A stretch of 33,861 bases of DNA from an uncultured Acholeplasmatales bacterium. Its GTDB lineage: Bacteria; Bacillota_I; Bacilli_A; Acholeplasmatales; Anaeroplasmataceae. Both the position numbers and the translations under genes were made by a program. Under the pieces are notes generated by a model. That model was not told where the DNA came from and made no database searches. It saw nothing but the letters and a program-made list of their open reading frames with translations. Below are positions 7,224-16,740 of the stretch, piece by piece. The DNA lies in the NCBI GenBank assembly GCA_944324725.1, contig CALUXJ010000009.1:1-33861 (forward strand), given 5' to 3'. How positions within the stretch are numbered: position 1 is the stretch's first letter; every line of letters begins with the position of its first letter.

Positions 7224-8220
7224 TTAATAACACCTCTATTGCCTCTTTTAGAGTAGATACTTCAATTAATTTCATACTTGTTTGCTTCTTTAATTTGTCA
7301 TAAGTAACTAAAGCCTCTTCATAATTAGCAGATGGGCAGAAAAAAACATCTACATCCTTAGCTATTGCCGTATAAAGTTTTTGTTTAATGCCGCCAATAG
7401 CTCCAACATTACCACTGATAGAGATTGTTCCTGTACCAGCAATGTTAAGTCCTTGGGAAAGATCAACAGGCAGCAAGTCATCAACTAAAGCTAGTGTTCT
7501 TAACAAGCCACCTGAGGGTCCATTTGTATATCCTCTATTTATAGTAACCTTAGGTTTAATAGTTTCATAATCAATATCATAGTAAGGATAGCAATAAGTA
7601 TAATCTAGTTCACTATCAACAATGACATCTAATTTTTGACTATTTCGCATAATAGTTAACTTAGTTCCTAAATCAACCTTAAGCCACCCCACACCATTAG
7701 ATAGGTTCAAATTGCAATCCATAACTGGCACATCGTCAATAGCAATTATTTCATCGCCAACTCTAAATTTACTACCTGCATAATAATAGTTTACTACAAG
7801 TGAACTTAAACTATAATCAATAAATATCTCATCGTTATATTCTTTGGCAAACTCATATGCGCAAATAATGGTTTGCATAATAGATGAATTATGTTCTATT
7901 TCTCCCATCAATTGATTTTCTTTACTAGTAAAATAGGAATAGCTTGGAGTAATTTCACTAATTGTCGCTGAGGCAACAAATTTACTAATAAAGTTTTGGA
8001 AAATTGTTGAATGATTAAATGAGATTACATAAACCGTTGAATAACTGCCACTATTTTGACTAGAATCATTTACACTTAAAATGTCACGTGCTGCTACTAA
8101 ACCACCTTTAGCTGTAATAGTATAATTAGTCCTAATTGTAGCAATTAGGACTAAAAATACATTAATAAGCACTGTGACAAAAAGTATTATAATATGGCGT
8201 AAATTAAGCTTTTTTAGCAT
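7210..8220 (-). CDS. Membrane-anchored PDZ plus Lon-like (S16) protease, YlbL type
   Basis: The protein has 336 residues. One N-terminal membrane segment (about 10-28) is followed by an extracytoplasmic region. A PDZ-like part (about 137-200: FRVGDEIIAIDDVPV) precedes a Lon proteolytic domain (about 225-336). The catalytic dyad is visible: Ser236 in GPSGG and Lys279 in AIGGIKQK. The NVGAIGGI segment and FCPSANYEEAL are also Lon hallmarks. There is no ATPase domain. This order matches Bacillus YlbL, a membrane protease reported to degrade the cell-division inhibitor YneA after DNA damage; whether the target is conserved here is unknown. It overlaps ileS by 17 bases and the small membrane protein gene by 14, so all three are co-expressed under the Ile T-box. 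Confidence 0.9.
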   Translation of the reverse strand: MLKKLNLRHIIILFVTVLINVFLVLIATIRTNYTITAKGGLVAARDILSVNDSSQNSGSYSTVYVISFNHSTIFQNFISKFVASATISEITPSYSYFTSKENQLMGEIEHNSSIMQTIICAYEFAKEYNDEIFIDYSLSSLVVNYYYAGSKFRVGDEIIAIDDVPVMDCNLNLSNGVGWLKVDLGTKLTIMRNSQKLDVIVDSELDYTYCYPYYDIDYETIKPKVTINRGYTNGPSGGLLRTLALVDDLLPVDLSQGLNIAGTGTISISGNVGAIGGIKQKLYTAIAKDVDVFFCPSANYEEALVTYDKLKKQTSMKLIEVSTLKEAIEVLLNEKI

Positions 8221-10909
8221 TTACAATCTCATGACAACGATGACATAAGCCATCTTCTAATTCTTCTTCAACTATCATCCAACAACGACTACAAACGTGA
8301 CCCTTAGCCTCTGTTACCTCCACATAAAATTTAGAATCTTCAATAATTTCTAGTTGAGAAACTATCAAAATTTGTGCTAAATCAGCCTGAAGGGATTCTA
8401 ACAATTCAATAGTTTCTTTTGGTGCATGGATAGTTAATTTAGCATTAAAGCTCTTGCCAATAACCTTGTTAGCTCTAGCTTCTTCTAAGGCCTTTAAAAT
8501 ATCTACTCTTAAGAGCATAAATTTATCAAAACGTTCTTCTAAATCACGATCTAGTTTTTCAGGTAATTTGTCATAATTTAAAAGATAAACATCCTCTTCT
8601 TTACGATAAGGCATAGTCTTATAAGCTTCTGAGGTAGTGTGTGGAATAATTGGGGTTAAAACCTTTAATAAATTTAATAGGATATAGTAAAGAACTGTTT
8701 GTAAGCTTAAACGTTTTTTATCACTTGGATCTAAAATATATAAAATATCTTTACTAAAGTCTAGGTAGAATGAACTTAAAGTTGTATTAACATAAGTGTT
8801 TGTTAAACGATAGACATCTCCGAAACGGAAAGTGTCATAAGCTTTATAAACTTCACTTAAATAATTGATAAACTTGATATACATATATTTATCAATTGTT
8901 TCTAATTCTTCATATGGAAGAGCATCCTTTGGATTAAAATCAGAAGTATTAGCCAACATAAATTTGAAAGTATTACGAATTTTACGATAAGTTTCCCCAA
9001 TTTGTTTTAATAAATCTTTACTGATTGGCATATCAGATTGATAATCAACTGAAGCAACCCATAATCTTAAAACATCCGCACCACTTGTTTTACAAACATC
9101 AGCTGGATCAATGACGTTACCTAAAGATTTAGACATTTTACGACCCTCGCCATCAAGAGTAAAGCCGTGAGTTACAACTGTTTTATAAGGAGCGCTATCA
9201 AACATTGCTGTAGCGGTAATTAAACTAGAGTTAAACCAACCTCGATATTGATCAGCTCCTTCAAGATATAAATCCGCCGGGAACTTTAAATTGTGACGTA
9301 ATAATGTCATATAGCTAGAGCCACTATCAAACCAAACATCCATAATATCTTTTTCTTTAGTAAAAATACCATTAGGAGAGTGGCTATTAGTATAACCAGC
9401 TGGCAACAATTCTTTAGCTTCTTTCGCAAACCAAATGTCAGAACCATATTCGCCAAATAAATCTGAAATGTGACTAAATACAGCCTGATCAAGAACTGGT
9501 GTACCATCTTCACAGTAGAAAATAGGAATTGGGACACCCCAAGCTCTTTGGCGAGAAATACACCAGTCGTGGCGGTCCTTAATCATATTTGACATCCGGA
9601 CATCACCCCATTTAGGGTACCAGGTTACGTTTTTAACATTATGTAATAGTTGGTCTTTTATCTTATCAATTGAAGCAAACCATTGTGGGGTTGCTCTAAA
9701 AATAACTGGTTTTTTAGTCCGCCAATCATGCGGATAACTGTGAGTAATCTTAACAACTTTTAACAAATTATTTGAAGCAGCTAAATCTTTAATTACTTCC
9801 TCATTACAATCTTGATAGAATAAGCCTTCATATTTCCCAGCTTCTTTAGTCATATAGCCTTTACTATCAACTGGGCATAAAATATCAAGATGATAAATTT
9901 TACCAACATTATAGTCGTCTTCACCATGACCAGGAGCAATATGAACAAGTCCACTACCATCATCTGTAGAAACATAATCGCCTAAAATACAAGGGGAAAT
10001 CCGATGATATAAAGGATGTTCATATTGTAAGCCTTCTAAATCTTGACCGATATATTCCTTTAAGACAGTTACATCACCAAGCTCAAGTAAATCCTTAAGC
10101 TTTGTTAATAAATCTGCCCCAAAAATGTATTTACCTTTTGCAGTATTAGCCAATACGTATTTGATTTGTGGGCCAGCACAAACAGCTAAGTTAGCAGGAA
10201 TAGTCCAAGGGGTTGTAGTCCACACTAAGAATTTAGCATCCTTTAATAAGGCATCTTCACTAACAATTGGTAAGGAAAAATAAATTGATGAATCTTCCTT
10301 ATCATAATATTCAATTTCAGCTTCTGCTAAAGCTGATTCACTAGATGGTGACCAGTATACTGGCTTAAGTCCTTTATAAATAAGGCCTTTTTCAACCATT
10401 TTAGCAAAAACCTTGATTTGATCACGTTCAAATTCCTTTTGTAAAGTTAGATACGCTTCATCCCAATTGGCTAAAACACCTAAACGCTTGAAACCTGTTT
10501 TTTGTCTTTCAACTTGTTTTAAGGCATATTCATGACAATATTTTCTAAATTCTAAAGTAGAAATTTCTTTTCTTTTAATACCCTTTTTCGTAATAGCTAC
10601 TTCAATAGGTAAGCCATGAGTATCCCAACCAGCAATATAATAAGAATAAAAGCCTTGCATATTCTTATAACGAACAACAAAATCTTTTAAAATTTTATTT
10701 AAAGCATGACCTAAATGAATGTCACCATTAGCATAAGGAGGACCATCATGTAATGTATATTCCTTGCTGCCCTTATTTTTTTCTAATCTTTTATGAAATA
10801 AATCTTCATCTTCCCAAACTTTTTCAATTAATGGTTCCTTTTGACCGAGATTACCACGCATTTCAAAGCTGGTCTTACCCATAAATAGGGTATTTTTATA
10901 ATCTTGCAT
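8204..10909 (-). CDS. ileS: Isoleucyl-tRNA synthetase
   Basis: This class I aminoacyl-tRNA synthetase charges tRNA-Ile. The frame opens at 10921, but that first ATG is part of the TGGAGGT ribosome site. ATG 10909 (MQDYKNTLFMGKT) matches the family start, giving 901 residues. The HIGH motif is HLGH (65-68, in PPYANGDIHLGH) and the KMSKS motif is complete at 591-595. The CP1 editing domain contains the TTPWTIPAN region. A C-terminal zinc finger is intact (C873, C876, C889, C892), as in bacterial-type IleRS. Expression is controlled by the T-box leader directly upstream. The sepF gene lies before the T-box, an arrangement recalling the sepF...ileS order of other Firmicutes. Confidence 0.98.
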   Translation of the reverse strand: MQDYKNTLFMGKTSFEMRGNLGQKEPLIEKVWEDEDLFHKRLEKNKGSKEYTLHDGPPYANGDIHLGHALNKILKDFVVRYKNMQGFYSYYIAGWDTHGLPIEVAITKKGIKRKEISTLEFRKYCHEYALKQVERQKTGFKRLGVLANWDEAYLTLQKEFERDQIKVFAKMVEKGLIYKGLKPVYWSPSSESALAEAEIEYYDKEDSSIYFSLPIVSEDALLKDAKFLVWTTTPWTIPANLAVCAGPQIKYVLANTAKGKYIFGADLLTKLKDLLELGDVTVLKEYIGQDLEGLQYEHPLYHRISPCILGDYVSTDDGSGLVHIAPGHGEDDYNVGKIYHLDILCPVDSKGYMTKEAGKYEGLFYQDCNEEVIKDLAASNNLLKVVKITHSYPHDWRTKKPVIFRATPQWFASIDKIKDQLLHNVKNVTWYPKWGDVRMSNMIKDRHDWCISRQRAWGVPIPIFYCEDGTPVLDQAVFSHISDLFGEYGSDIWFAKEAKELLPAGYTNSHSPNGIFTKEKDIMDVWFDSGSSYMTLLRHNLKFPADLYLEGADQYRGWFNSSLITATAMFDSAPYKTVVTHGFTLDGEGRKMSKSLGNVIDPADVCKTSGADVLRLWVASVDYQSDMPISKDLLKQIGETYRKIRNTFKFMLANTSDFNPKDALPYEELETIDKYMYIKFINYLSEVYKAYDTFRFGDVYRLTNTYVNTTLSSFYLDFSKDILYILDPSDKKRLSLQTVLYYILLNLLKVLTPIIPHTTSEAYKTMPYRKEEDVYLLNYDKLPEKLDRDLEERFDKFMLLRVDILKALEEARANKVIGKSFNAKLTIHAPKETIELLESLQADLAQILIVSQLEIIEDSKFYVEVTEAKGHVCSRCWMIVEEELEDGLCHRCHEIVNAKKA

Positions 10910-10921
10910 TTTAACCTCCAT

Positions 10922-11132
10922 TAAAAAAGTCCTTAGAATAAATCTAAGGACGAAATAATCCGCGGTACCACCTTAATTCTAGTAAATATTTTACTAGCTC
11001 TTCTTGGCTTTAACGCAGCATACGTAGACTTTTTAAATCTAATTCATTCTAGTGATTCTAATATTTCCTTTTGCCTGCCTCACACCAAACGCAGTTCGCT
11101 GCCAAAAGATTTAATATTACGTCTAGAAATAC
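10922..11132 (-). promoter_or_regulatory. T-box riboswitch, isoleucine type (ATC specifier)
   Basis: On the minus strand the T-box consensus AAGGTGGTACCGCGG (10960-10974) is followed by a terminator before ileS. Upstream, a long Stem I is built from TTCTAG/CTAGAA at its base, TAATATT/AATATTA and CTTTTG/CAAAAG. The internal loop between the first two stems carries GA-ATC-AC on its 3' side, so the specifier codon is ATC (11054-11056), Ile, as expected for ileS. Uncharged tRNA-Ile would bind and favour the antiterminator. Limits are approximate: the start follows the predicted promoter and the end is the terminator. Confidence 0.93.
10923..10951 (-). terminator. Regulated terminator of the ileS T-box
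   Basis: GTCCTTAG and CTAAGGAC (8 perfect pairs, 7-base loop) are followed by six T on the minus strand. This is the T-box terminator that competes with the antiterminator formed by the T-box bulge. Confidence 0.92.
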
Positions 11133-11137
11133 AACAT

Positions 11138-11166
11138 ATTTTAACAAAAACTTAGCTAAAGGGCAA
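11138..11166 (-). promoter_or_regulatory. Promoter of the ileS T-box transcript
   Basis: On the minus strand TTGCCC (11161-11166), a 17-base spacer and TAAAAT (11138-11143) with a TGt extension. It starts 8 bases after the sepF stop, so ileS can be transcribed independently of the jet-sepF operon. No intrinsic terminator separates the two, and read-through is possible. Confidence 0.5.
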
Positions 11167-11174
11167 TAGTTTTT

Positions 11175-11498
11175 TTAATCTTCATCTAATTCATCGAGGA
11201 ATTCTTTTAAACTGCCATCCTCAAAATCTTCTTCTTTAGCAAATAAATACGTCGTTTCGTTAATTTTTATGGTTCTACCATGAGAAGCATAGCTAGCTCC
11301 CGTAAAGAAAGCTAAAAGCTTATTAGCTCCCATCAAGTCTAACTTTTCAAAATTTAAAACGAGTGGGTGATTAGCTTGGAGCTTATCGACTAATTCAGCA
11401 GCAGCTTCATCGTCATCTTCTAATTGTTCCATAATAAGACGTTCACTGGCTAAACCTTTTTCTTCCTTAACTTCTTTTTTGCGACCGAATAATCCCAT
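11175..11498 (-). CDS. sepF: Cell division protein SepF
   Basis: The 107-residue protein starts MGLFGRKKEV; the frame opens at 11510, but AAGGATGGTGA places the start at 11498. The SepF core is clear: a helix ELVDKLQANHPLVLNFEKLD, then NKLLAFFTGASYASHGRTIKI, and the diagnostic ending TYLFAKEEDFEDGSLKEFLDEL. SepF polymerises on the membrane and bundles/anchors FtsZ at the division septum. The linker between the N-terminus and core is short compared with Bacillus SepF (about 150 residues). Its ATG is one base after the jetC stop, so it is co-translated with the condensin genes, while ileS lies downstream as in other Firmicutes. Coupling to JetC is unusual; see findings. Confidence 0.92.
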   Translation of the reverse strand: MGLFGRKKEVKEEKGLASERLIMEQLEDDDEAAAELVDKLQANHPLVLNFEKLDLMGANKLLAFFTGASYASHGRTIKINETTYLFAKEEDFEDGSLKEFLDELDED

Positions 11499-11499
11499 T

Positions 11500-14400
11500 T
11501 TATTCACCATCCTTTTTAATGATTGGCATAACTTGGGCTTTAACCCCTTGACGGGCCATAATTAAAATAGTATTAGCATAGTCTTGTAAGAGACTCATTC
11601 TTTGTGGTGGGCAGGCAATAATTGTTTGTAATGGCATTGATGTAATGAAATCCATCATTGCCTTCATTCTATTACTATCCATCTTATCAAAGACCTCATC
11701 AAACATGACAAGACCAATTGGATCTCCGCCAAAGGCTTGAGTCTTGGTATAGATACGAACAAATGATGCAATTATTGCTACATAGAATGGTACTTGGGTC
11801 TCACCACCAGATTTTTCCTTAAAGACTTTAGAATAACTCATTGATTCCCCATCTTGGTTAGTAATTTTAATATCATAATCCATATAAGTTCTATAATCAG
11901 TGAATTTATTAATTACACCATGGGAATTAATTTCATCAACGGCTAAGCTATCAAACAATTCTTTAATTTGTTCTTCATATTTTGCCTCAAAAGAATTAGT
12001 AAATAATCCTGTTGTACCATCCGCTACATCAGCTTTAACCATTTCATAGAAAGCCCCATACTCACTAGACTTAGGGAAAACAAATTCATAGGTATCATTA
12101 CCGAAGCGAATATGACTTAGAGTATCATTAATCTTACCAATTTCAATTTCAGCTTGTTCAATATTAGCTCTCAGCTTAGCAATAAAGTCCTCTTTAAAAA
12201 TTAATTCCGCTTCTTCACGAGCTGTTCTAACCTTTTGTTCGTATTTAACTAACTCAGTTTTTTCTAACTTGTTAAGTTCACTATAATACGCTGGCATTTC
12301 ATTAATACCAATTGAGAAACTTGAATCATAATCATTGATGTATTGATATTGTCTTGTAACTAAGGCTTCTTGCAATGTATCAAAGGTATTATCATTAACG
12401 TTATATTTTTGTTCAAATAGTTGATAAGCTTCTTTGAAACTGCGTTGGCTGATAAAATCTTTAAATTCATTTTCTGCTCGATCTTTAATTGTAATATTTT
12501 GGTTATTTAGTTTAGCTAAATCATTTTTCTTAGCTTCTAATAAATTGTTTTGGTCATTAACCTTTTCCTCTAGGTTAACAATATTTTGTTCAATTCGTCC
12601 TATTTCTAAAATAATACTACTCCGTTTTTCTTCATTATTAGAAATAGTAGTTAGAATATGATTATAATCGTCTTCAACATCTTTAAGTGATGAGGTATTT
12701 AAGTGTTCTTTTTGGAGATGTAGTCCCTTTAAAGTGTCCTTCTCATATTCCAATTTTAAAGCACCATCAATACCCACTAGGATAGTTTGGAAATCTAAAC
12801 TATCTAATAAAGTTAAATCTTCTTCTAAATCACCAATCTTGCCAGTAACATTATCGTATTCTTGTTTAGCTAGATTTGCCTTTTCTTCCCAGGCTTTTTG
12901 TTGAGATTGGTAAGCATTTTTACCACAGAATGGTTTTTCAATTCGTGGATTCATGCTTCTAACCGTATATTGACTATATAATAAGTAATCATTAGTTACA
13001 GCTGTACTATATTTTTCTAACTCAAGCTCATTATCACACATTATGACGTTACCACACGTCATATTAATATAGCGTCTAGCATCCTCGTTTTCGGATGTCA
13101 TAATACTTGCCAAAGAATTAGGCTCAAAGCTATCAAAGTTACCTATCCTTTTGGTATTGACAAGACCAATACCATAAATTGGATGTCTATCTTTAATACG
13201 GGCAAAAATTTGTAAAGCTTGATCATAATAGCGTGGCTCAACAATCATATTAAACCTTCTATTACCTAAAAATACTTCAATAGTATCTTGCCATTTAGGA
13301 TCCATTATCTCAACTAACTCAGCAAAGATAAAAACAGGAATATCATAGTTATAAATTCTTTTTAAACCAGCTTGTATTTCATCTCGTAAAGCAATTAATT
13401 GACTAGGAAAATTAACCTTGTTTTGGCTTAATTTCTTCAAAGCAATAGCAATTTCATTAACATTTGCAATAATTTCACTCTTTTTAAGCGTTAAGGCACC
13501 TAAATCTTGATTATCCTTTTGTTTATATTGCTCAACTAAATTTCTCGCTTCTGTTAATTTTAGTCTTGTGAAGTCGACTTCATTTTGGTTAAGATTTATT
13601 AATGACATATTAGCCAAATCATTAAAAATTTTTCTTTGGGTATTCTTCTTTCTTAATGCGGTAATATTATCCTTAAAATTAGCAACATATTTTAAAAAGC
13701 GAGCATTGTCTTGTTCTAATTCAACAATATTTCTTTCTCTTGCTTCAATTTCACGCGTGATGTTTTCATTATTTTTAAAAGAATCATCATTAGCTAAAAC
13801 ATTATAAAGCTCTTTGCTACGTTGATTTAAGGCTGAAATTTCCCGCTCAATCTGTCTTAAATCACTTTCGCGATTAGATTTACGCAAGTTTTCTTTTTCA
13901 ATATCACGTTTTAAATTAGCAATATCATTATTTACTTTTTCTTTAGCAAATAAGGTATCTAGGTATTCAATATAATTCTTATTTTCAATGATTTTTTCTA
14001 ATTCTTCATGAATATTTGTGATTTCCTTTAAATCAGCAATCTTTTTCTTAATTAAATTTAGTGTATTTTCTAGTTCTTTATAAGAACGAATAGTATCTTT
14101 AATAGCTGAAACATCTATTTCTTTTTCTTCAAGAACATTTTGATAAATAAATTCCTTAACATCGGCAATAGGTTTAAAAGCTAAGGCCTTAGGAATTAAT
14201 TTGAAAAAGTCTTCATTTATAGAACCAAAAGCATTACGGAAAGCCCGTTTAGCTTCTTTTTTCGTTAAATAATATTCAAAGTCTGGGTTGTTCTTTCTAA
14301 AGACAACTGTTGAATAAATCATTCCTTGCTCAGATACAAACCAAGAATCATTCATTTTAGCATCAACTTTGTAGAATAAGCTTTTGACTGGCATTAGTTC

Positions 14401-14742
14401 CCCAAAAGCATCAATTACAACCCCGACTGTAAAATCAGTATTTTGCTTTTCATCATGGAACTCTAAAGCAACATGACCAGTAACATCACCATCACGTAAA
14501 TATTCTTTGTCATCTAAGCCCAATTTACATTTGACATAGCCTCTTAAATCCCGTTTTGATTTTTCGTTAGCAGCCATATTGAAGTTAGTTTCACCAGCTG
14601 TAATCACATACATAATGGCATCCATAATTGTTGATTTACCACTCGCGTTAGGACCTGTTAAAAGAATGTGACCATTTACATTAATCGTTTCATTAGCTAG
14701 GTAGTGCCAGTTAATAAGTCTTATTTTGGTTAGCTTTTTCAT
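11500..14742 (-). CDS. jetC: SMC/MukB-like ATPase JetC of a JetABC (MksB-like) condensin
   Basis: The protein has 1080 residues. Walker A is at the N-terminus (GPNASGKST, 30-38), after the family-typical opening KIRLINWHYLANETI. Long coiled coils follow (roughly 230-400 and 650-880), with a globular middle around 440-610 (NRRFNMIVEP...IYGIGLVNT). At the C-terminus are the ABC signature (SGGE, 978-981, with ETQVPFYVAIIASF) and Walker B (GLVMFDE, D1015/E1016). This is the SbcC/MukB-like subunit of Wadjet and MksBEF complexes, which extrude DNA loops. It overlaps jetB by 4 bases (ATGA) and is followed by sepF after one base. The nuclease subunit JetD is not found nearby. Confidence 0.9.
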   Translation of the reverse strand: MKKLTKIRLINWHYLANETINVNGHILLTGPNASGKSTIMDAIMYVITAGETNFNMAANEKSKRDLRGYVKCKLGLDDKEYLRDGDVTGHVALEFHDEKQNTDFTVGVVIDAFGELMPVKSLFYKVDAKMNDSWFVSEQGMIYSTVVFRKNNPDFEYYLTKKEAKRAFRNAFGSINEDFFKLIPKALAFKPIADVKEFIYQNVLEEKEIDVSAIKDTIRSYKELENTLNLIKKKIADLKEITNIHEELEKIIENKNYIEYLDTLFAKEKVNNDIANLKRDIEKENLRKSNRESDLRQIEREISALNQRSKELYNVLANDDSFKNNENITREIEARERNIVELEQDNARFLKYVANFKDNITALRKKNTQRKIFNDLANMSLINLNQNEVDFTRLKLTEARNLVEQYKQKDNQDLGALTLKKSEIIANVNEIAIALKKLSQNKVNFPSQLIALRDEIQAGLKRIYNYDIPVFIFAELVEIMDPKWQDTIEVFLGNRRFNMIVEPRYYDQALQIFARIKDRHPIYGIGLVNTKRIGNFDSFEPNSLASIMTSENEDARRYINMTCGNVIMCDNELELEKYSTAVTNDYLLYSQYTVRSMNPRIEKPFCGKNAYQSQQKAWEEKANLAKQEYDNVTGKIGDLEEDLTLLDSLDFQTILVGIDGALKLEYEKDTLKGLHLQKEHLNTSSLKDVEDDYNHILTTISNNEEKRSSIILEIGRIEQNIVNLEEKVNDQNNLLEAKKNDLAKLNNQNITIKDRAENEFKDFISQRSFKEAYQLFEQKYNVNDNTFDTLQEALVTRQYQYINDYDSSFSIGINEMPAYYSELNKLEKTELVKYEQKVRTAREEAELIFKEDFIAKLRANIEQAEIEIGKINDTLSHIRFGNDTYEFVFPKSSEYGAFYEMVKADVADGTTGLFTNSFEAKYEEQIKELFDSLAVDEINSHGVINKFTDYRTYMDYDIKITNQDGESMSYSKVFKEKSGGETQVPFYVAIIASFVRIYTKTQAFGGDPIGLVMFDEVFDKMDSNRMKAMMDFITSMPLQTIIACPPQRMSLLQDYANTILIMARQGVKAQVMPIIKKDGE

Positions 14743-15323
14743 TCTTCATCACCACCCTGTTTTATGCGGTTAATTGTTTGATATAGTGAATTAATATCAT
14801 CACTAGGAATAGCTAATAAAATAGTTGGCATTAACACTATCTTACAAGTTGAAGTAGATAAATCACCCGTAGCCTCAATTAGATTATATCTTCTAAACAA
14901 TCTTAAAGCTGCTACTAAATCTGTTTTGTTTAATTTCTTTTTTATTTCTAAATAATCATACTTCTCGTGAATATCCGCCACTTGACAAATTACATTATCA
15001 TTTAATGAAGTTTCCTTCATTTTTTCATGATATAAAAGTCGTAAAATAAGTAATACTAATGTTTCATCTCTTTTTAATCTAAGGGTCTGACCTTGACTAA
15101 AACCTTGAAGCATAACTGAACCTTGTTGTTGATTTAAAGTAATTTCTAATCCTAATATTTTAAAAAACTCATCAAAAATATCCTTATAGCTCATTAAAAA
15201 GTAATATGCTTCTTTATTATCTTTCTTGTCACGAGCTAAAAAGTTATAAGCCAAGAGTTTATTTGCCACATCTCTAAACATAGCTTGTTGGGGATTAGTC
15301 ATTTTTTCTAAGCTATCTAACAT
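14739..15323 (-). CDS. jetB: JetB (MksE-like, DUF4194-type) condensin subunit
   Basis: The protein has 194 residues. An N-terminal helical part (NPQQAMFRDVANKLLAYNFLARDKK...AYYFL) is followed by a tandem winged-helix region (about 60-175) containing LKRDETLVLLILRLLYHEK and TDLVAALRLFRRYNLIEA, the pattern of the DUF4194/JetB-MksE family. In condensins of this kind the KITE-like subunit bridges the kleisin and the ATPase heads. It starts two bases after the jetA stop and its own stop overlaps the jetC start, so stoichiometric coupled translation is likely. The call rests on size, fold signature and gene order; the sequence family is fast-evolving. Confidence 0.85.
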   Translation of the reverse strand: MLDSLEKMTNPQQAMFRDVANKLLAYNFLARDKKDNKEAYYFLMSYKDIFDEFFKILGLEITLNQQQGSVMLQGFSQGQTLRLKRDETLVLLILRLLYHEKMKETSLNDNVICQVADIHEKYDYLEIKKKLNKTDLVAALRLFRRYNLIEATGDLSTSTCKIVLMPTILLAIPSDDINSLYQTINRIKQGGDEE

Positions 15324-15324
15324 A

Positions 15325-16740
15325 CTAAACCTTCTTTCTAATTAAAAAGTCTTTCATACGCAAAGCAAAATTTTCAATTTTCTTATCACTTAAAACAAAC
15401 ACTTCATATTGCTCTTCATTGTCTAAGGCATAAAGAATGGCATAAATTGCTAACATACACGTATCTTTATCCGTTTCATATTTAATGACATCACTACCAT
15501 ACATACGGTCATTATCTAAATGAGCTAATAAGAAGTCTTTAGCTACATCTTCACTATATGGTGTTTGATACTGTCTAATAAAATCTGATTCAATATCAAA
15601 ATCAAAAAGAGCACCTTCATCAAGCATTAAATTATAATTATGTTTGTAGGCTCCTCTAGGAATATAGATAGATGACTCACTAATTCCTCGATTAGCTTCT
15701 AACTTATACATATTATTGACATCCCTAAGTGCCTTATCAAGATGATTTTCCTTATTGCTCTTTCGCACATACTTTAAGATAGCATTAACCTTACCAATAA
15801 TATTATCATCCTCTGAAATTAAGAACTTTATTTTGGCAATAGTGCTATTAATATAAGTTTTACTCTTTTCATCTATTTCGGTAATATATTCATCTAAAGC
15901 ATTAAACACATCAATAATTTCATCTATATCGCGAATGACACGGCCCATTTTTTTATCATCTGGTAAATTAGGGTAATTTAGGCTGATAGCATTTAGGATA
16001 TCTTCATTATTTTCGTATTCTTCTAAGCGTGATACAATCCGCAACCGATATCTATTAATGTTATCTGACATTTTTAGTTTAGCATAACCTTGTTCAACAA
16101 AATTTTCACGATATGATACTAAGTTTTCCATCAAATCTTTAACTTCTACTTGGTCAAATACTGAACTGATATAAGTTTTAAGTCTAGCATCTAAACGTCT
16201 AATAGAACGCAATAAAAGTTTAGTGTTACGATAAACCTCTTGCATTATCACACTATATTCTATACTATCACTATTGTTTAAAAGCGAATAAATAGTATAA
16301 ATATAACCTTGATACTCTCTACTATTATAGCTACTTGTTTCATTATCCTCAAAGCCCTGATAACTAGAACCATAGATTTGCATTAGGGCTTCGGTAATAA
16401 TAATACCAGCATCAGAAAAATTTAATATTTCAATATAATCATTTGTAACATCAACATAAATCCAACCACATTCTTCCATCTTACGCAAAGCATAATTAGC
16501 TAAGTCACGATTAGATTTTGGGTTAGCTTCCTCATCATCAATATCTTCAACATCATAACTATATTTGTTCGTATCTAAATAATGAACTAGTTCATCGGCA
16601 ACAATCTTTTTTTCAATTCCTAATATTGTGCCTGTTTCATATATCTTGAATGCTTCAATGATTAAAGAAACATAAATCCTTTTATTTTTTGAACTCAAAA
16701 GTGAAAAAAAGTTATCTGGAATAGCGTTAAAAATATCCAT
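15325..16740 (-). CDS. jetA: JetA (MksF/kleisin-like) condensin subunit
   Basis: The protein has 471 residues. It starts MDIFNAIPDNFFSLLSSKNKRIYV, typical of the Wadjet JetA (DUF5716-like) family. A winged-helix-like N-terminal part (about 20-130, including YALRKMEECGWIYVD) is followed by a long helical middle (about 140-350). A C-terminal domain (about 390-471: DVAKDFLLAHLDND...MLAIYAILYAL...) completes it. The kleisin would bind the JetC heads and JetB. ATG 16740 has GAGGTGA at good distance and a strong extended -10 promoter. It is the first gene of jetA-jetB-jetC-sepF. Assignment is by N-terminal signature, length and order with jetB and jetC. Confidence 0.85.
   Translation of the reverse strand: MDIFNAIPDNFFSLLSSKNKRIYVSLIIEAFKIYETGTILGIEKKIVADELVHYLDTNKYSYDVEDIDDEEANPKSNRDLANYALRKMEECGWIYVDVTNDYIEILNFSDAGIIITEALMQIYGSSYQGFEDNETSSYNSREYQGYIYTIYSLLNNSDSIEYSVIMQEVYRNTKLLLRSIRRLDARLKTYISSVFDQVEVKDLMENLVSYRENFVEQGYAKLKMSDNINRYRLRIVSRLEEYENNEDILNAISLNYPNLPDDKKMGRVIRDIDEIIDVFNALDEYITEIDEKSKTYINSTIAKIKFLISEDDNIIGKVNAILKYVRKSNKENHLDKALRDVNNMYKLEANRGISESSIYIPRGAYKHNYNLMLDEGALFDFDIESDFIRQYQTPYSEDVAKDFLLAHLDNDRMYGSDVIKYETDKDTCMLAIYAILYALDNEEQYEVFVLSDKKIENFALRMKDFLIRKKV

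Follow-up and report, generated by a model that had tools for sequence, protein, structure and literature searches.

The jetABC genes of this uncultured Acholeplasmatales bacterium appear to encode a domesticated type I Wadjet motor that has lost the nuclease JetD and serves as a housekeeping chromosomal condensin in place of the lost Smc-ScpA, a reading to which we assign a probability of roughly 0.7. Wadjet is a defence system, and the host group comprises wall-less gut bacteria. In the proposed mechanism JetC supplies the ATPase motor, with JetA as kleisin and JetB as KITE subunit, and the complex would extrude loops of chromosomal DNA. With JetD gone there would be no DNA cut on completion of extrusion, so that the self-harming defence activity would have been lost while the activity in compaction and segregation was retained. 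In the Anaeroplasmataceae the operon would have been inserted into an ancestral ftsZ...sepF-ylmH-ileS region, and co-transcription of sepF with jetABC would allow the condensin and the Z-ring anchor to be produced together.

The window, meaning the whole stretch of DNA analysed (33,861 nucleotides), is an entire contig (G000:C9). The draft genome to which it belongs measures 1.4 Mb in 96 contigs and is 89% complete. ORF calls and the sequence itself place the operon on the minus strand, from 16740 to 11175, in the order jetA-jetB-jetC-sepF, with the following features:

16773-16765, minus strand: extended -10 element TGCTATAAT before jetA, read from the sequence as a consensus match only.
15325-16740, minus strand: jetA, 471 aa, kleisin subunit of a type I Wadjet-like SMC complex (PF18982, PADLOC and AlphaFold fold matches).
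14739-15323, minus strand: jetB, 194 aa, KITE (MukE-like) subunit, 1-nt gap behind jetA (DUF4194, PADLOC JetB1).
11500-14742, minus strand: jetC, 1080 aa, SMC-type ATPase, 4-nt overlap with jetB (PADLOC JetC1, motifs and structure-profile matches).
11175-11498, minus strand: sepF, FtsZ-ring membrane anchor, ATG one base past the jetC stop (PF04472).
10943-11143, minus strand: T-box leader of ileS (Rfam RF00230, E 4.9e-21; at 92 bits just short of the gathering cut-off of 93).

The tight spacing described in the original prediction agrees with these coordinates for the jetA/jetB gap and the jetB/jetC overlap, and with the sequence for sepF, whose start codon is the ATG one base behind the jetC TAA; an alternative in-frame sepF ATG at 11510 would overlap jetC. 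All three Jet proteins were recognised by the PADLOC type I models (JetA1 344, JetB1 203 and JetC1 1007 bits), and a JetA kleisin, a JetB KITE protein and a JetC SMC ATPase lie together in one operon, as in Wadjet type I. Weak family matches of JetA and JetB, which the original prediction had named as evidence against itself, were not seen: JetA scored 218 bits against PF18982 (cut-off 26.2) and JetB 107 bits against DUF4194 (cut-off 32.7), both far over the cut-offs. JetC retains the Walker A motif GPNASGKST, the signature SGGE and the Walker B residues DE, all in columns that are invariant among 22 homologues, and its profile matched the solved JetC chains 8as8 and 9qxt over the full length of the protein and MukB at the heads only. 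A sequence search of the PDB with JetA gave no significant match, and its structural identity came from fold comparison, in which JetA and MukF chains were the only PDB matches to the AlphaFold model (pLDDT 76) at E ≤ 0.001. SepF scored 38 bits against PF04472 (cut-off 27) and is the sole match in the source genome, which also encodes FtsZ (G000:C32).

Canonical Smc and ScpA, for which a search had been proposed, are both absent. No Smc scored over the cut-off in the source genome or in any of 60 relatives (10 of 14 controls were positive), and ScpA likewise was found in none of the 60 and not over the cut-off in the source genome (9 of 14 controls). Those relatives of the locus that carry names are MAGs of the Acholeplasmatales and Anaeroplasmataceae, and Haploplasma modicum belongs to family f3 (Acholeplasmataceae). 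JetA is present in 50 of the 60 relatives and in 34 of the 35 that belong to the Anaeroplasmataceae, G035 being the genome without a match. From the absence of Smc and ScpA, together with this conservation, we infer a chromosome-organising role for JetABC. Five phytoplasma-like loci (L093, L318, L319, L320 and L321; f3 g23) carry an intact lone JetA of ∼460 aa with no JetB or JetC nearby; that of L318 scores 195 bits against PF18982.

The survey was extended to 394 genomes of the class, each at least 90% complete and most of them draft MAGs (G060 to G413, together with the closer relatives). ScpA was found in 199 genomes, Smc over the cut-off in 199 and JetA in 117; JetA and ScpA occur together in 14, JetA without ScpA in 103, ScpA without JetA in 185 and neither in 92. 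Two clades that lack Smc and ScpA hold 103 of the 117 JetA-positive genomes, and the JetA-positive genomes of the Smc-less clades are JetD-less where examined, apart from accessory second copies and G045. On an RpoB+RpoC tree of 65 genomes, with Smc labels assigned per family, two changes are needed to account for Smc/ScpA loss, and clade X (f1-f5, f7, f9, f16, f19, f23 and f24) and clade Y (f11, f21 and f26-f28) are both fully supported. A search for JetC in 80 of the genomes with neither JetA nor ScpA found none, only short fragments of other ATPases, and neither kind of SMC complex seems to be present in families f5, f9, f16 and f19 or in part of f11. Since about 90 ScpA-negative genomes also lack JetA, a condensin is not obligatory after Smc loss. 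A few genomes in this category score positive in the Smc search, and the Smc in G269 may be contamination.

At the head of the operon, the jetA leader carries an SD-like GAGGTG in addition to the extended -10 element, and a terminator-like hairpin lies behind the ABC gene upstream. The single strong promoter proposed for the operon is plausible, but a simple scan lent its strength no support: promoter-like sites were not in excess (23 against 32 expected). At the other end, the T-box leader belongs to ileS (8204-10921), downstream of sepF, which makes sepF the probable last gene of the operon. Judged from these signals, jetABC-sepF looks like a closed operon between the jetA leader and the ileS T-box, in which jetABC and sepF would be co-transcribed and jetC and sepF are probably translationally coupled.

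Linkage of JetA and SepF, on the same contig and at operon distance, was found in 32 of 36 Anaeroplasmataceae genomes (source included); in three of the other four the genes are found close to the ends of contigs, while the fourth is G035. The jetABC-sepF block, whose conservation across relatives was to be checked, is intact in 21 Anaeroplasmataceae loci (L127 counted) from seven genera, all of those sampled. Its flanks vary, with ychF or ppa upstream and ileS downstream, and ftsZ is also separated in several genomes. In the basal genus the order is ftsZ ... sigE-like, sigG-like, ppa ... ychF, jetABC, sepF, ylmH, ileS, and in L140 ftsZ stands immediately before jetA. The SigE-like and SigG-like sporulation sigma genes (L300:10175-11690, also in L073 and L081) lie between ftsZ and ppa...ychF-jetABC-sepF and score under the equivalog cut-offs. 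A 366-aa gene upstream of jetA was considered as FtsZ and proved to be YchF. In the sister families jetABC is found elsewhere and is followed by ptsI, a C1 peptidase gene, groESL (groES first) or rsmE, which encodes an rRNA methyltransferase.

The reservation that sepF near ileS is ancestral was well founded. As sepF-ylmH-ileS is the ancestral order, still kept in the basal Anaeroplasmataceae genus, jetABC would have been inserted upstream of sepF into an ancestral division cluster. The sepF link probably reflects co-expression, and we lean towards operon lock-in as its cause, whereby sepF was left without a promoter of its own, and the gene order was kept for expression with no mechanistic coupling. 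Lock-in is compatible with a condensin role for JetABC and fits the ancestral ftsZ...sigE-sigG...sepF-ylmH-ileS arrangement still visible in the basal genus, the one-base spacing of the jetC stop from the start of sepF, and the restriction of the linkage to one family and its absence from the sister families. It is less easily squared with a block that all seven genera have kept even where ychF, ppa, ftsZ and ileS became separated from it, as happened in several genomes, a pattern that would also fit selection for co-regulation. The proposal that loop extrusion is coordinated with the FtsZ ring through SepF gained no support; the adjacency is confined to a single family, and direct contact between JetABC and SepF is unsupported. 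A more far-reaching reading, unlikely as a whole, is that in the Anaeroplasmataceae JetABC is physically tied to the Z-ring via SepF, folding the chromosome and clearing or positioning it at the division site, and that conversion of Wadjet to a condensin took place repeatedly in the Smc-less mollicute-like clades.

No JetD-like gene lies in the window, as had been noted, and a profile search (PF09983) of the whole 96-contig, 89% complete draft found none. JetD is present in six of the 60 relatives and absent from 54, closed Acholeplasmataceae genomes among them. It adjoins a second, divergent jetABC in G003, G025, G027 and G029, the only jetABC of G045 (f5) and a Jet fragment in G018; four of the five Anaeroplasmataceae genomes with JetD thus have it next to a complete second jetABC. 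A jetD beside duplicate jet genes, which the original prediction had taken as a point against it, is lacking in the source genome but does occur in these four relatives, as part of a separate, divergent set. In Anaeroplasmataceae loci no JetD was found next to the resident jetABC, nor did any adjoin jetC in those Smc-less families with JetA that were sampled, f5 excepted. The coexistence of a JetD-less resident set and a complete second jetABCD in the same genomes suggests a division of labour. An IFDR-type JetD-binding motif at the JetB N-terminus was considered as a marker of JetD loss and was uninformative, since JetB proteins of Firmicutes showed no recognisable motif whether JetD was present or not.

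It is unlikely, in our estimate, that JetABC still acts in anti-plasmid defence, with its nuclease encoded elsewhere or replaced by an unrelated, unrecognised effector. Such a role would suit proteins that score as type I Wadjet subunits, and in Smc-positive relatives JetA is sporadic and found together with JetD; the resident set, however, is nearly universal and largely vertically inherited, unlike a patchy defence system, and JetD is missing from the genome and from most relatives. Nor is there a constant partner, as the gene after jetC differs by family (sepF, ptsI, C1 peptidase, groES or rsmE); a constant alternative fourth gene was rejected, the genes at this position being unrelated housekeeping genes. 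Of the two possibilities first raised, a Wadjet set with its nuclease elsewhere is disfavoured by the distribution of JetD, whereas a nuclease-free JetABC of housekeeping type gains support from the lack of JetD in the genome, the absence of Smc and ScpA and the conservation of jetABC-sepF.

Outside the class, JetD comes after jetC in almost all loci that extend far enough downstream. In JetC trees (quick searches, unrooted) the JetD-less proteins fall into several groups that are nested within the JetABCD proteins: f1+f2+f4+f23+f24, the Acholeplasmataceae (f3), f7, and clade Y families near Caldicoprobacter. A single clade of all JetD-less JetC (AU p = 2e-4), one JetD-less clade within clade X (p = 4e-14) and a joint clade of the f1 and f3 groups (p = 1e-16) were each rejected. 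Because almost all outside loci that are long enough to show JetD do have it, it was probably lost repeatedly. The JetC subtree largely tracks taxonomy. Family f12, which is Smc-positive, has both JetABCD and JetD-less JetABC (loci L118, L308, L309, L311 and L312, with complete jetABCD also in G086, G095 and G111), the JetD-less proteins falling mostly in a clade of their own. Absence of JetD therefore does not strictly track absence of Smc, and f12 is a candidate for an intermediate stage. In L315, from the Smc-positive genome G152 (f17), a divergent jetABC is followed by an Fe-ADH gene instead of JetD.

Within the genus, JetC and JetB show 75-90% identity and dN/dS of ∼0.1, like IleS, these values being rough because dS is near saturation; JetA and SepF evolve faster, yet are constrained. 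The phytoplasma-like genomes with a lone JetA indicate that decay does happen in reduced genomes, but a decaying or neutral Wadjet remnant is very unlikely here, given that across the Anaeroplasmataceae the ORFs are full length and the set of ATPase motifs is complete, that dN/dS speaks for purifying selection and that the genes are retained across deep clades.

The larger point, beyond the original prediction, is the loss of Smc-ScpA together with several independent JetD-less lineages. Conversion of a Wadjet system to a condensin can be traced here through these lineages and two Smc-ScpA losses, as well as through Anaeroplasmataceae genomes with both sets and a family (f12) with Smc, JetABCD and JetD-less JetABC. 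Acholeplasmataceae can be cultured, so chromosome organisation by JetABC alone is directly testable. A search of open-licence papers found no description of a JetD-less Wadjet motor as the core set of Smc-less bacteria.

The set shares with Wadjet type I (JetABCD, also MksBEFG or EptABCD) three homologous proteins, JetA, JetB and JetC, encoded in identical order; JetC can be aligned over its full length to the E. coli JetC structures and the JetA model matches JetA chains in fold. The present set differs in being JetD-less, co-operonic with sepF and the only SMC-type condensin found in the source genome, and the patchy, accessory distribution of Wadjet is replaced by near-universal presence in the family (34 of 35 relatives with JetA). 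Chromosomal activity of JetABCD systems was undocumented as of a recent review, which speculated that MukBEF and MksBEF arose from Wadjet via JetD loss, and Wadjet itself from Smc-ScpAB (PMC10586767). MksBEF of Pseudomonas aeruginosa, a MukBEF-like system with a clear contribution to chromosome organisation and segregation that is likely derived from JetABCD by loss of JetD (PMC10586767), is similarly a kleisin-KITE-SMC trio without MksG/JetD. In P. aeruginosa, however, Smc is also present (PMC7485682), and the JetB of the present set falls just under the cut-off of the MksE model PF21980 (25.4 against 27 bits) while reaching 107 bits with DUF4194. MukBEF offers a parallel as an SMC complex that took over from Smc-ScpAB in enterobacteria (PMC10586767), and among the fold matches of the JetA model MukF ranks next after the JetA chains; MukB, in contrast, is longer and distant in sequence, matching JetC at the heads only, and the putative replacement described here is a recognisable JetABC in several separate JetD-less lineages. 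Smc-ScpAB of Bacilli would be the functional equivalent of JetABC, although it is built from other protein families, and Smc and ScpA are absent from the source genome and the 60 relatives.
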